Origin: Alphaproteobacteria bacterium
GTDB taxonomy: Bacteria; Pseudomonadota; Alphaproteobacteria; CAAGCB01; CAG-977
Assembly (NCBI GenBank): GCA_024407875.1
Contig: JAKSVT010000010.1
Span: 1 to 60,877, forward strand
Direction: 5' to 3'
DNA length: 60,877 bases
Positions within the stretch are counted from its first letter, which is position 1. Each line of letters starts with the position of its first letter. The position numbers and the translations under genes are program-made. The notes beneath the pieces are model-generated. The model saw only the letters and a list, made by a program, of their open reading frames with translations. It had not been told where the DNA came from and made no database searches. Positions 34,819 to 42,509 of the stretch are shown in pieces.

Positions 34819-34992
34819 CTATAGCTCCCATTTATCTAAATCATAAACAGGAATTATGATAGAAACTTTAGGAGCAGGACTTACATTTCCTGCGGAGATT
34901 GTTCCCAATTCTTCGTCCTTTAATTCAACGATTTTATTTTCTTTTGTTTCTTTTTCGGTAACTAATTTGTTTTCTAGAATTTCTTTTTCCAA
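34819..34992 (-). CDS. Candidate leader-type (RiPP/bacteriocin) precursor peptide with TTG start
   Basis: A 57-residue peptide starting with TTG and preceded by GAAAGGAA. Its first 36 residues, with NKLVTEKETKENKIVELKDE and then ELGTISAGN, match the leader of the next upstream gene at many positions (NKL, K, N, I, EL, D, EL) and end in a small-residue motif like double-glycine leaders. The remainder, VSPAPKVSIIIPVYDLDKWEL, differs completely from the partner's core and resembles the first strand of family 2 glycosyltransferases (KVSIIIPVYN). It could therefore be a precursor or a leader fused to a decayed transferase start. It lies 30 bases after its partner. Confidence 0.6.
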   Translation of the reverse strand: MEKEILENKLVTEKETKENKIVELKDEELGTISAGNVSPAPKVSIIIPVYDLDKWEL

Positions 34993-35022
34993 GGCATTCC
35001 TTTCACAAATATAAATTATTCA

Positions 35023-35223
35023 TTAATTACAACAATTATCATCAGGATAAGAATAAGTGCAATATTCAATTTTTTTATCAAGATTAACAGGACATCCTGG
35101 GGTCTTAGCTGTGACTCTAATATTGCCATCTCCAACAATTTCTAATAATTCATTATCTGTTAATTCGGTAATTCCATTAACTTTTACGTCTTGTTTAGAA
35201 ATTAATTTATTTGCTTTTCCCAT
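35023..35223 (-). CDS. Candidate leader-type (RiPP/bacteriocin) precursor peptide, Cys-rich core
   Basis: A 66-residue peptide with a strong ribosome site (GGGAG, 8 bases) before ATG. Residues 1-33 form an acidic-helix leader, VNGITELTDNELLEIVGDG, of the ELxDxELxxVxGG style used by C39-peptidase exporters and lantibiotic-type systems. The core, about residues 34-66, holds Cys44, Cys55, Cys64 and Cys65 and ends DDNCCN. It is the first gene of a two-gene reverse operon with the TTG-start peptide. No modification enzyme or exporter is in the window, so the maturation type is unknown. Confidence 0.65.
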   Translation of the reverse strand: MGKANKLISKQDVKVNGITELTDNELLEIVGDGNIRVTAKTPGCPVNLDKKIEYCTYSYPDDNCCN

Positions 35224-35465
35224 GCCAGTTCTCCCATAAAAAGCTTCTATAATAGTATAACGTTTGAAATAGAAATTTGTTACAAAAATAGAAGGAATTT
35301 ATGGATACTTTATTAAAATAATCATAAATAGCTTATTAGAATGTTTGTATGTTTAATATGTTTGATGATGAATATTTGTGGGGCTAATGGAATCAATAAG
35401 TTAGTTTAATTTTAAACTTTAATGTCAAAATTAGATAAAAAATAATACACCTATTTGCTTTTATT
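35224..35465. other. Intergenic stretch upstream of the leader-peptide pair
   Basis: About 240 bases without a gene. The reverse strand has TATACT/TACTAT words near 35,255-35,265 suitable as a -10 box for the peptide operon but no clear -35. Nothing else recognisable. Confidence 0.35.
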
Positions 35466-39219: not shown

Positions 39220-39519
39220 GTGATTGAACAAGAAGTTAGCTCATTAAAAAAAGATATTATTGATGACCACCAAACTGGATTTTTTGGTGGTTTTAATGTT
39301 ATTAATGTGGGACACAGAAGGTTTCCATTAAAATTAGCTTTTGTTTTGTTAATTTTTACATTGATAATTGTAGCTCTTGTTACGTTATTTGTATTAGTTG
39401 ATATGCTCAATAATCCAGGCAACTTTAAATATACAGAACTTTTGATTTTAACGGCTATATTATTCTTATCATTTATTTGTATATCTATTCGTTACACTAT
39501 AAAAAAGGGATTAGTGTAA
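39220..39519 (+). CDS. NuoA-like small membrane subunit (shortened, divergent)
   Basis: A 99-residue protein with two membrane helices starting at GTG. The C-terminal part (RRFPLKLAFVLLIFTLIIVALVTLFVL ... NFKYTELLILTAILFLSFICISIRYTIKKGLV) aligns by eye with helices 2-3 of NuoA, including the KKGxL end. The first NuoA helix and the acidic loop ahead of it (usual YECG) are not seen. Its TAA overlaps the nuoB-like ATG by one base. Position A in a nuo-ordered operon supports the call, but sequence similarity alone is weak. Confidence 0.5.
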   Translation: MIEQEVSSLKKDIIDDHQTGFFGGFNVINVGHRRFPLKLAFVLLIFTLIIVALVTLFVLVDMLNNPGNFKYTELLILTAILFLSFICISIRYTIKKGLV

Positions 39520-39950
39520 TGAATATAATTAAAACAAAATTAGAAGAACTAAATAGATTTTGGCAAAATGAAACTTTAACCGCATTTGTTTTGAACTTAG
39601 GGTGTTGCTCTTTTCAATGTAAGATAGAAAGTTTGTTAGGATTAAGAGTTGTATATAATCCAATTTTTGCCGATGTTTTAATAGTTAGCGGAATAATTAA
39701 TGACAAAAATAAAGAAGTTATTCTAAATGTTTATAAACAAATGGCTTCTCCAAAATTTGTAATGAGCGTTGGTAATTGTGCTTTTAATGGTGGCGTTTTT
39801 GAAGATTCAAAGGGTGTAATTAAAGGTCTAAAAGAGATATTGCCTGTAGATGTTTATATTCTTGGATGTAAAGACGGTTTTTCAAATGTTAGTGTTGCAA
39901 TTTCTGAGTTGCACAATAAAGTTTTAGGAAAAGATAAAAATGAATTTTAA
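39519..39950 (+). CDS. nuoB: NuoB-like [4Fe-4S] subunit (cluster N2 carrier)
   Basis: A 143-residue homologue of complex I NuoB and hydrogenase small subunits. All four N2 ligands are retained: adjacent Cys29-Cys30 in NLGCCSF, Cys87 in SVGNCAFNGG and Cys117 in ILGCKDG (usual GCPP). The segment VYKQMASPKFVMSVGNCAFNGGVF is close to canonical NuoB. ATG 39,519 gives a standard length; the upstream extension in frame lies inside the NuoA-like gene. It overlaps the nuoC-like gene by 11 bases. It should accept electrons from the NuoI-like protein. Confidence 0.85.
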   Translation: MNIIKTKLEELNRFWQNETLTAFVLNLGCCSFQCKIESLLGLRVVYNPIFADVLIVSGIINDKNKEVILNVYKQMASPKFVMSVGNCAFNGGVFEDSKGVIKGLKEILPVDVYILGCKDGFSNVSVAISELHNKVLGKDKNEF

Positions 39951-40425
39951 ACCTATAAACTTTAAAACTTTTGATGAATTTAAATCATATTTAGAAATTA
40001 GTTTTTCTAAAAGAGATTTGCTGGGCATTGATTCCTCTGACGAACAAATTTATTTAACAATTATTCCTACTGCTAATTTTAGGGTTATAAAGCGTTTAAA
40101 AGATGATAATAAATGTTCTTTTAATAGATTAATCGATATAACTGCTTATGAAGAAGACGGAAAAACTTTTTTAGTTTATTTATTAAATTCAGAAGAAAAC
40201 AATGTTTATTTACATGTGAAAACTTCTCTTGTAGATGACAACAGTGTTATATCTCTATATAAGCTTTATAAGAATTCTGCGGTTTTAGAATGTGAAGTTA
40301 GAGATTTCTATGGGATTTCTTTTTCAAGTCATCCAGATCAGAGACACTTGTTTTTCGATGAAAAAGATTGTCTTTCTAAAGACTATGTTGAGATTTTATC
40401 TAATGATGAGGGGGATAAATGTTAG
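39940..40425 (+). CDS. nuoC: NuoC-like subunit (30-kDa type)
   Basis: A 161-residue protein with the 30-kDa subunit core: FNRLIDITAYEEDG, a LHVKTSL strand and the C-terminal signature CEVRDFYGISFSSHPDQRHLFF (usual REVWDMFGIxFxGHPDLRRIL). It supports the NuoB-NuoD pair structurally and has no cofactor. Overlaps on both sides (11 and 7 bases) show tight coupling. The sequence is divergent but full length for a separate NuoC. Confidence 0.85.
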   Translation: MNFKPINFKTFDEFKSYLEISFSKRDLLGIDSSDEQIYLTIIPTANFRVIKRLKDDNKCSFNRLIDITAYEEDGKTFLVYLLNSEENNVYLHVKTSLVDDNSVISLYKLYKNSAVLECEVRDFYGISFSSHPDQRHLFFDEKDCLSKDYVEILSNDEGDKC

Positions 40426-41531
40426 GACATTTTGTAAATGTTGCTCCTGAACCAATAGATAATGTAGGGTGCTTTAGAATTGTTGCAAATTTGCTTAATG
40501 ATAAAATACAAAGATTAGATTTTTTTGTGGGGTATACTCATAAAGGAATTGAAAAAATAATCGAAAAGAATCCTATTTATAAAGGGTTAATTTTTGCTGA
40601 TAAGGTTTTTGCGTATCCTTTTTTTGGTCAATACCCATTAGTCTTAGCTGTAGAAAAATTAATGAATATTCATGTTCCTGTTAGAGCTCAAATGATTAGA
40701 GTTATGCTAATAGAACTAGAAAGAATAGAAGTATATTTAAAATATATAGGCGTAATGTCATCTTCTTCAGGAATTCAAATGCCAAAAGCTTTAGCTAATA
40801 GGCTAATAAGTAAATGGAGAGAGATGATAAATTCTTTATTCCATACTTCATCTCAAAACTATTTTAAAATAGGTGGTGTATATCAGGATATTAATACTGA
40901 TTTTGAAAGAATAGTTAAATCTAATATTTTGGAATTAAGATCTGTTTTAAAAGATTTATTATGTTTAACAGATAATATTTTTTTCCAAAAAAAATCAATA
41001 GGTATAGGCGTAATTTCAAAACAACAAATTAAAGATTATGGTTTGACAGGGATTATTGCAAGAGCAAGTGGAATAAATGATGATGTTAGAAAAAAATATC
41101 CATATGATTTTTATGCTAATTTAGATTTTGATATTCCTTTAAAAAAAGCAAGTGATGTTTATTCTAGATTTATTTTATATTTTGATGAAATTTATCAATC
41201 ATTATCAATTGTTGAACAGTTAATTACATATATGAAAAAACAAGCTCCAAATGAGCCTATTTTGGCAGAAGAGCTTTTAAAAGAAAAAGATTTTGATGAA
41301 AAGTATATAATTCCAAAAGGAGAAATATATATTCCAACAGAATCTGTTGTTGGACAAACAGGAGTTTACTTAAAGTCTGATGGAACAGTTCGTCCTGTTA
41401 GATGTCATTATAGATCGTCATCTTTGTCAAAATTATATGCATTAAATGAAATGTTTTCTAATATGACATATCAAGATTTAAGGTTTGCTCTTTCTAGTTT
41501 GGGCATTGAGATAAGTGAATGTGATAGGTAA
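40419..41531 (+). CDS. nuoD: NuoD-like subunit without NiFe ligands and without the quinone-site histidine
   Basis: A 370-residue 49-kDa-type subunit. VGYTHKGIEKIIEKN, VPVRAQMIRVMLIELERIEVYL, YFKIGGVYQD, GLTGIIARASGIN and GVYLKSDGTVRPVRCHYRSSS follow NuoD throughout. There is no CxxC at either end, so it is not a hydrogenase. The N-terminal HPxxHG loop that lines the quinone site is replaced by PIDNVG (residues 12-17); the tyrosine of the LDY motif may survive as Tyr66 in FAYPFF. What it reduces is unclear. Frame intact, overlaps nuoC by 7 bases. Confidence 0.85.
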   Translation: MLGHFVNVAPEPIDNVGCFRIVANLLNDKIQRLDFFVGYTHKGIEKIIEKNPIYKGLIFADKVFAYPFFGQYPLVLAVEKLMNIHVPVRAQMIRVMLIELERIEVYLKYIGVMSSSSGIQMPKALANRLISKWREMINSLFHTSSQNYFKIGGVYQDINTDFERIVKSNILELRSVLKDLLCLTDNIFFQKKSIGIGVISKQQIKDYGLTGIIARASGINDDVRKKYPYDFYANLDFDIPLKKASDVYSRFILYFDEIYQSLSIVEQLITYMKKQAPNEPILAEELLKEKDFDEKYIIPKGEIYIPTESVVGQTGVYLKSDGTVRPVRCHYRSSSLSKLYALNEMFSNMTYQDLRFALSSLGIEISECDR

Positions 41532-41534
41532 AAA

Positions 41535-42509
41535 ATGAATTTAGAACAATCTAGTAATTTTTTATCATATGCAATTGGATTTGGAAAAGTTATTGCTTAT
41601 TTCCTATTTATAATTACGTGTGCATTGTTTGTTCAATATATCCAAGATGTTTATAAAAGACATATGCAACTTAAGCCTTCTAATTCATTTAAGTTTGTTT
41701 TGGGACAAAATTTTAAATGGAAAAAAAGCGAATTAATGAACGTTAAAAGTAAAAAAATATACGTTTTAGCGCCAATTATATTTTTTATAGTTTCACTTAG
41801 CTTTTGCTATATTATTCCTCTGTTTCCTGTTAAAGATGAATCTTTGAATAAAATCTCAAAGTATGGATTATATTTCTCATCATTATGCTATCCTATTATG
41901 ATTAGCCTTTGCGTGCTTTGGTCTTGGAATGTTTCTATGGTTAGTACATTCTTTGCCGATGTTTATGTAGTTATTCAATTTATTTGTGCACAATTGATCA
42001 TTTTAATGATTAATTTGATTATTTTGCTAAGTGCTCATTCAGCAGACATAGCAGAGATTTCAAATGCTCAAGAAGTTTGGTATATGTTTAAGCATTTTCC
42101 TTTGTTCTTGTTATATATTTTCGCTACATTATTAATAACAGGACAAGAGCCGTTTAATTCTTTTCTTGCTCAAAAATCTTTATCTGGTGGCATCTTAAGT
42201 CCTTATTTTGGAAAATTAGGTCAAGTTTGTAAATTAGGATTTTCTGTTTTATTCTTATATATGGTTTTATTAATAGCTTATTTGTTTATGGGAGGAACAA
42301 ATCCTGTTATAGGTTTTGAAAATTATGGCGCGGAAGTCCAAATTTCATTGAAAGTTTTGTTTTTGCTGTTTTTTATGGGATTAATAAAAGCTTGTTTGCC
42401 TTTAATTTATCCTGCTCAAATAATAAAAATTACATATAAATACATTATGCCATTTTTAACAGTATGGTTGTTTGTTTGTATGCTTTTCCAAAAAGGATTT
42501 TTAAAATGA
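41535..42509 (+). CDS. nuoH: NuoH-like membrane subunit with degenerate E-channel loop
   Basis: A 324-residue protein of about eight membrane helices. PLFLLYIFATLLITGQEPFNSFLAQKSLSGGI aligns with the NuoH block PxFxxFFxAALAETNRxPFDLPEAESELVAG, but the acidic residues of ETNR and EAESE are gone (ITGQEPFN at residues 201-208, then AQKS). In complex I these residues link the quinone site to the proton path, so coupling must differ or be absent. Identification is by this block, size and operon position between D- and I-like genes. Its TGA overlaps the next ATG (ATGA). Confidence 0.75.
   Translation: MNLEQSSNFLSYAIGFGKVIAYFLFIITCALFVQYIQDVYKRHMQLKPSNSFKFVLGQNFKWKKSELMNVKSKKIYVLAPIIFFIVSLSFCYIIPLFPVKDESLNKISKYGLYFSSLCYPIMISLCVLWSWNVSMVSTFFADVYVVIQFICAQLIILMINLIILLSAHSADIAEISNAQEVWYMFKHFPLFLLYIFATLLITGQEPFNSFLAQKSLSGGILSPYFGKLGQVCKLGFSVLFLYMVLLIAYLFMGGTNPVIGFENYGAEVQISLKVLFLLFFMGLIKACLPLIYPAQIIKITYKYIMPFLTVWLFVCMLFQKGFLK

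Follow-up and report, generated by a model that had tools for sequence, protein, structure and literature searches.

A two-gene locus of an alphaproteobacterium belongs to a dispersed family of putative exported peptides that may share a promoter type with T6SS genes

What are two very small, adjacent genes whose products resemble each other only at the N-terminal end, and which machinery would act on them? Such a pair lies on the minus strand of the window analyzed here, an alphaproteobacterial stretch of 60,877 nt. The initial annotation read the two genes as candidate RiPP or bacteriocin precursors with a shared leader and unrelated cores, and supposed that a leader-directed system acts on them in trans. 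In our reading, to which we give a probability of about 0.68, they belong to a dispersed family of small exported peptides that is transcribed by an ECF sigma factor along with T6SS genes and is served by one NHLM-type exporter, the cargo being probably unmodified.

Results

Structure of the two-gene locus

Both open reading frames were found on the minus strand where the initial annotation had placed them. Gene 1 (35023..35223; ORF list and leader HMM) encodes a 66-aa precursor from an ATG codon, and gene 2 (34819..34992), which begins 30 bp downstream, encodes a 57-aa precursor from a TTG codon; a tRNA-Met gene is convergent with the pair. Gene 1 is preceded by a Shine-Dalgarno sequence GGGAG (35231..35235, minus strand) and by an ECF-type promoter, TGTAAC-N16-CGTTA (35258..35284, minus strand), the same box that stands before 11 leader genes and two hcp genes of this genome. 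Gene 2 has no promoter box of its own, and the pair is predicted to form a two-gene operon of the family. The TTG start of gene 2, as originally proposed, is well supported, because it coincides with the MEKE start of the family and is preceded by a Shine-Dalgarno sequence, AAAGGA (34998..35003, minus strand). A consensus search found no terminator after gene 2, and the fold at that point is weak.

The leader of gene 1 comprises residues 1–32 (35128..35223, minus strand) and ends in IVGD; its core of 34 aa (35026..35127, minus strand) contains four Cys and has no homologue that we could find. The leader of gene 2 comprises residues 1–35 (34888..34992, minus strand) and ends in ISAG; its core of 22 aa (34822..34887, minus strand) shows a likeness to the first strand of GT2 glycosyltransferases that is not significant (E 0.31). 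The leader ends had been given as GDG and SAG. The second of these holds, S-A-G being the commonest form in the family, but the first does not: in the family register the residues of gene 1 equivalent to the GG site are V-G-D, with Asp at P1, and the cleavage site is therefore off-consensus. Elsewhere in the window (39477-42509), genes resemble by eye those for subunits of a hydrogenase-4 or formate-hydrogenlyase-type complex.

The shared leader and its family

To keep the leader from being tested on itself, the HMM used to assess the similarity between the two leaders was trained exclusively on those of a sister species (36 leaders); it was then run on every one of the 1,506 open frames in the window. 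Gene 2 was retrieved with E 2.4e-11 and gene 1 with E 4.9e-7 (40.1 and 26.3 bits, respectively, vs. 9.2 bits for the best of 20 shuffled sets); the remaining frames were noise, with a next best E of 0.066. With an HMM built on the 30 remaining leaders of this genome, the corresponding E values were 9.5e-15 and 3.1e-6. By these scores the leader similarity is not due to chance, and both frames are almost certainly genuine members of a family with double-glycine-type leaders. The shared leader noted in the initial annotation was thus recovered by both models, and the cores that follow it are almost all unrelated to one another.

When the assembly (47 contigs, 1.77 Mb) was searched at the DNA level with a region of 601 bp, 28 matches were obtained. 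The leader HMM matched 30 times in this genome and 30 times in the sister species, which is one of three congeners; it had no match in the other two congeners, in eight further members of the taxonomic family or in 84 genomes from elsewhere in the class. Searching for the promoter first added two members here and four in the sister, for a total of approximately 32 leader genes in this genome and 36 in the sister. The search for further copies that the initial annotation had called for therefore yielded about 30 of them. Family genes are solitary on contigs C5, C6, C8, C19 and C23, paired in the window, and arranged in arrays on C12 (at 44 and 73–75.6 kb), C11 and C21. At the site of the sister genome that corresponds to the window pair there is no ortholog; the site is empty, and the region downstream of RsmB differs there. 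Some copies lack a good start codon or carry deletions. A phage or viral source of the family was considered and dropped, as no match was found in phage records or viral contigs.

Several further features adjoin the family genes. A toxin-antitoxin pair of AbiEi/AbiEii-like type (DUF6088 and PF08843) lies within the C11 array (L011:1135-2737). Repeated intergenic elements, TTGGTGAGGGGGCT in the sister species and GGGACACACAAAAATGAG in this genome, adjoin leader cassettes (L044, L041, L043, L045 and L051; L010). Some cores appear to run through intergenic repeats. A second, longer and distinct class of leader is possible in the sister, where two genes that carry the family's promoter box (starting at L133:3450 on the minus strand in one case; L107 in the other) have leaders of the form KAKDVD(F/Y)LI(N/K)AAFDLPAPEMP...VIELT(D/E)(D/E)DME.

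Leader anatomy and constraint

Among 68 members of both species, hydrophobic residues occupied positions −4, −7, −12 and −15 in 96, 91, 91 and 79% of leaders, respectively. P1 was Gly in 63 of the 68, and P2 was Ala in 37 and Gly in 17; most leaders end in AG and not in the textbook GG, and gene 1 of the window deviates with GD. Leader length is roughly 20–38 residues. The four hydrophobic positions and the small residues at P2-P1 (GG, GA or GS in the general motif) are those of double-glycine (PCAT) leaders, and the pattern agrees with the rule published for peptides docking to C39 peptidase domains: hydrophobics at −15/−12/−7/−4 (PMC7018657) and Leu-12...Glu-8-Leu-7 (PMC6363468). Paralogous leaders differed at 47–48% of synonymous sites vs. 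27–29% of nonsynonymous sites (uncorrected; pN/pS of about 0.6). Because nonsynonymous divergence is the lower, the leaders are most likely translated and under protein-level constraint in both species.

A single NHLM-type exporter with an altered C39 domain

The genome encodes a single protein with a C39 domain. It belongs to a run of genes on contig C18 in the order HlyD, ABC1 (720 aa), ABC2 (849 aa), an ANF-receptor-like protein and TolC. HlyD scored above the TIGR03794 cut-off (165 > 156 bits), and the best matches of ABC1 and ABC2 were TIGR03796 and TIGR03797, both below the equivalog cut-off (661 of 853 and 628 of 709, respectively). All three families belong to the NHLM exporters described by Haft et al. 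2010 (PMC2887384), and the HlyD/ABC1/ABC2 order is that of the NHLM three-gene operon. No maturase lies near the window genes, as had been remarked, and the trans-acting system then postulated has a candidate in this exporter, encoded elsewhere in the genome; leader homologues and candidate processing machinery are both present.

Within the genus (four species), the C39 transporter occurs in the two species with leaders and in neither of the two without. The more distant genome G005 has a C39 protein of another architecture and none of these leaders; among named GTDB genomes, the search for exporter homologues returned only ABC proteins of 27–34% identity in three genomes, which is uninformative. 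Because of this co-occurrence and of the fit to the docking rule, the NHLM operon is the likely exporter of the leader peptides.

The catalytic motifs of the C39 domain are ECGAAS and EHFVV in the sister vs. ESGAAS and NQYVV in this genome. The peptidase domains of ABC1 are thus intact in the sister (L041:9024-11210) and have Cys replaced by Ser and His by Gln in the window species (L018:10582-12744). With both Cys and His gone, the domain of this genome should dock its substrate without cutting it, as in the C39-like domains of type I secretion (PMC6363468). P1 Gly is nevertheless kept in 28 of the 32 leaders here, despite the dead-looking domain. A tie between loss of the peptidase and loss of the cleavage motif was rejected, since the sister, with its intact C39 domain, also has mostly AG endings. 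In both species the ABC genes are followed by an ANF-receptor or periplasmic-binding-like protein (L018:15292-16440 and L041:5303-6424; 30% identical).

A promoter in common with T6SS genes

In most operons TGTAAC-N16/17-CGTTA stands upstream of the first gene, with (A)GGAGAAC and then the start codon after it. Counted against its reversed form as a control, the pattern occurred 17 vs. 4 times in this genome and 26 vs. 6 times in the sister, and 1 vs. 3, 0 vs. 0 and 0 vs. 6 times in three relatives without leaders; among the five genomes compared, the enrichment was confined to the two that bear leaders. The 17 sites of this genome comprise 11 before leader genes, two before hcp and four that are unassigned, a number close to that of the control. 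Of the 26 sites in the sister, 20 are upstream of leader genes, one of a VgrG-like gene and one of a ClpV gene, the last being less certain because it lies within the preceding reading frame. One further site is upstream of a 589-aa frame without a family match. The T6SS locus of the sister, as identified by HMM, includes TssA, TssB, TssC, TssF, ClpV, VgrG and Hcp. Genome G002 has a T6SS and neither leaders nor the promoter.

The box resembles alphaproteobacterial ECF promoters; that of EcfG is GGAAC-N16-CGTT, with a nearly invariant AAC (PMC7083833). It has a −35 element with AAC and a −10 element CGTT at a spacing of 16–17 nt, and an ECF sigma gene (C12:71905-72435) is present approximately 1 kb from the C12 array, the only one retrieved by that query in this genome. 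This sigma factor is 79% identical to its counterpart in the sister and has homologues of 43–46% identity in relatives without leaders, whereas RsmB, used as a yardstick, is 54–57% identical in all congeners (56% vs. the sister). A shared promoter for the exporter and the ECF gene was rejected: the box was found upstream of neither. The pairing of this ECF sigma factor with the box is therefore one that we infer. Few sites underlie the link to the T6SS: two for Hcp in this genome, and those for VgrG and, less certainly, ClpV in the sister. That leader genes and T6SS genes constitute one ECF regulon is, in our view, probable. A T6SS under ECF control is already on record for Xanthomonas citri (EcfK/PknS; PMC6653060).

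Neither this promoter nor the degenerate C39 domain was foreseen by the initial annotation.

Maturases and cores

No LanC-like or SPASM protein was found in this genome or in four related genomes, and no maturase was present at the leader-array or exporter loci read. The RiPP part of the original proposal is therefore not supported. The NHLP and Nif11 precursor families (TIGR03793 and TIGR03798) were not among the 25 NCBIfam families most often matched by 55 members at E 0.1, and neither matched any of the members scanned singly; by HMM scan, the leader family appears to fall outside both.

Cores are 8–65 aa long (median 31), mostly neutral to acidic and hydrophilic, and half of them have no Cys. 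Core sharing is scarce: some pairs or groups span the two species, and a few lie within them. One core of the sister corresponds to the last 30 residues of a Bacillus-type flagellin (E 7e-7 vs. PDB 6t17; above the Pfam Flagellin_C cut-off) and has three related cores across the two species; the cores that resemble the flagellin C-terminal D0 helix are at L014:8080-8331, L009:8345-8542, L042:2760-2936 and L042:2962-3240. An origin from the organism's own flagellins was rejected, as these have different C-terminal ends. Another core exceeds the cut-off for the Chlamydia Pmp repeat, and one weakly resembles the NlpC/P60 Cys motif (E 0.15). Two more, one per species (L055:3665-3844 and L047:5742-6002), have in common the motif LY(K/A)(N/S)GHVG(V/I)(Y/W)L, which is reminiscent of the NlpC/P60 His motif. 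A few cores may imitate other proteins, most clearly Bacillus-type flagellin, or may resemble them by chance. Capture of cores from genes of the same genome was also rejected, because tblastn of 11 concatenated cores against it returned only the cores themselves. We likewise rejected the idea that cores are left over from longer genes broken by frameshifts: when the DNA downstream of nine examples was translated in three frames, no continuation was obvious by eye.

Discussion

A model of peptide export

We propose that the ECF sigma factor transcribes the leader operons, that of the window among them, from TGTAAC-N16/17-CGTTA promoters, along with genes for Hcp and VgrG. The hydrophobic face formed by leader positions −15/−12/−7/−4 would dock in the groove of the C39 or C39-like domain of the exporter, and the complex of HlyD, ABC1, ABC2 and TolC, encoded on another contig, would move the peptide, with its hypervariable cargo, across both membranes. 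Cleavage after (A/G)G is expected of the C39 domain in the sister; the domain of this genome would only dock, and the leader would be either retained or removed by another protease. The odds that the cargo is both unmodified and active in competition or signalling are, in our estimate, slightly short of even.

Alternative explanations

If the products were RiPP precursors, their cores would be modified before export by a maturase acting in trans. The combination of leader and variable core would fit, NHLM exporters usually accompany RiPPs (PMC2887384), and there are weak matches, below cut-off, to lantibiotic-family HMMs; yet the genome is devoid of LanC-like and SPASM proteins, no maturase was seen at the array or exporter loci read, and half of the cores offer no Cys, so that we consider this improbable. 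That the peptides are classical bacteriocins (microcins), each with an antibacterial core and its own immunity, was the other half of the original proposal. We rate it as a minority prospect: the exporter type, the leader type and the promoter in common with T6SS genes agree with it, but in the arrays leader gene closely follows leader gene, which leaves scant room for immunity genes (none was recognized), and the cores are mostly neutral or acidic and hydrophilic.

The promoter in common with hcp and vgrG could instead mean that the leader addresses the peptide to the T6SS, for loading onto Hcp or VgrG, and not to the NHLM exporter. This is very unlikely, because the leader, compared residue by residue, follows the rule for docking on C39 and its presence tracks the exporter and not the T6SS, G002 having a T6SS without leaders. 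A selfish or decaying cassette, made of a promoter-leader unit that is copied and spreads, with random, functionless 3′ sequence as cores, would account for the seldom conserved cores, some of them apparently running through intergenic repeats, for the copies with poor starts or deletions, and for the catalytic residues lost from the C39 domain here. Against it, leaders are constrained in both species, a few cores are conserved between them, and approximately 32 members have been retained in a small genome; such a cassette also seems improbable to us. An extension of the exported-peptide reading is that the more than 30 peptides form one ECF regulon with the T6SS, use the single, docking-only NHLM exporter and include cores that mimic proteins of other bacteria (the flagellin D0 helix; possibly GT2, NlpC/P60 and the Pmp repeat) and act as decoys or assembly poisons. 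We regard this extension as speculative and rather unlikely.

Relation to known systems

From its sequence features, the leader system appears to work like a PCAT/NHLM precursor system. NHLM/NHLP systems (PMC2887384) share with it the three-gene HlyD/ABC-peptidase/ABC exporter and the co-occurrence of exporter and precursors, and their paralogous precursor families are likewise large. Unlike theirs, the leaders here are short and related to neither nitrile hydratase nor Nif11, no maturase was found, ABC1 and ABC2 fall below the equivalog cut-offs, the C39 catalytic residues are lost, and an ANF-receptor-like protein is part of the operon. Prochlorosins and synechococsins (Nif11 leaders, ProcM; PMC10783134) likewise have many dispersed precursors with a conserved leader, unrelated cores and one trans-acting system, but require a LanM-type enzyme, and no LanC-like protein is found here. 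Double-glycine peptides of PCATs (ComAB/BlpAB/RtgAB, PMC7018657; bacteroidetocins, PMC6671954) have the hydrophobics at −15/−12/−7/−4 and the small residues at P2-P1. The present family differs from them in its approximately 32 copies in one genome, its Gram-negative three-part exporter, its mainly AG instead of GG endings and the lack of a recognized immunity gene.

Substrates of HlyB carry a C-terminal signal, whereas those considered here keep an N-terminal leader. The HlyB-type ABC proteins of type I secretion are alike in having a C39 fold without the catalytic Cys, which is thought to dock the substrate (PMC6363468). EcfK/PknS (PMC6653060) is alike in that an ECF sigma factor transcribes T6SS genes, but in the present case the promoter type of the T6SS genes is also found before tens of genes for small, putatively exported peptides. 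In the open-access literature we found no report of such a leader family tied to a T6SS regulon.

If this reading is correct, a bacterium with a small genome maintains a large and diversifying set of small peptides for export, members of which ordinary gene callers may miss, and for which the promoter provides a sequence handle where leaders have drifted. C39-type peptide export and T6SS, which are usually studied apart, would be united under one promoter type. The two sister species, with near-identical leaders and an intact vs. a degenerate C39 domain, would constitute a natural test of double-glycine leader export without cleavage.
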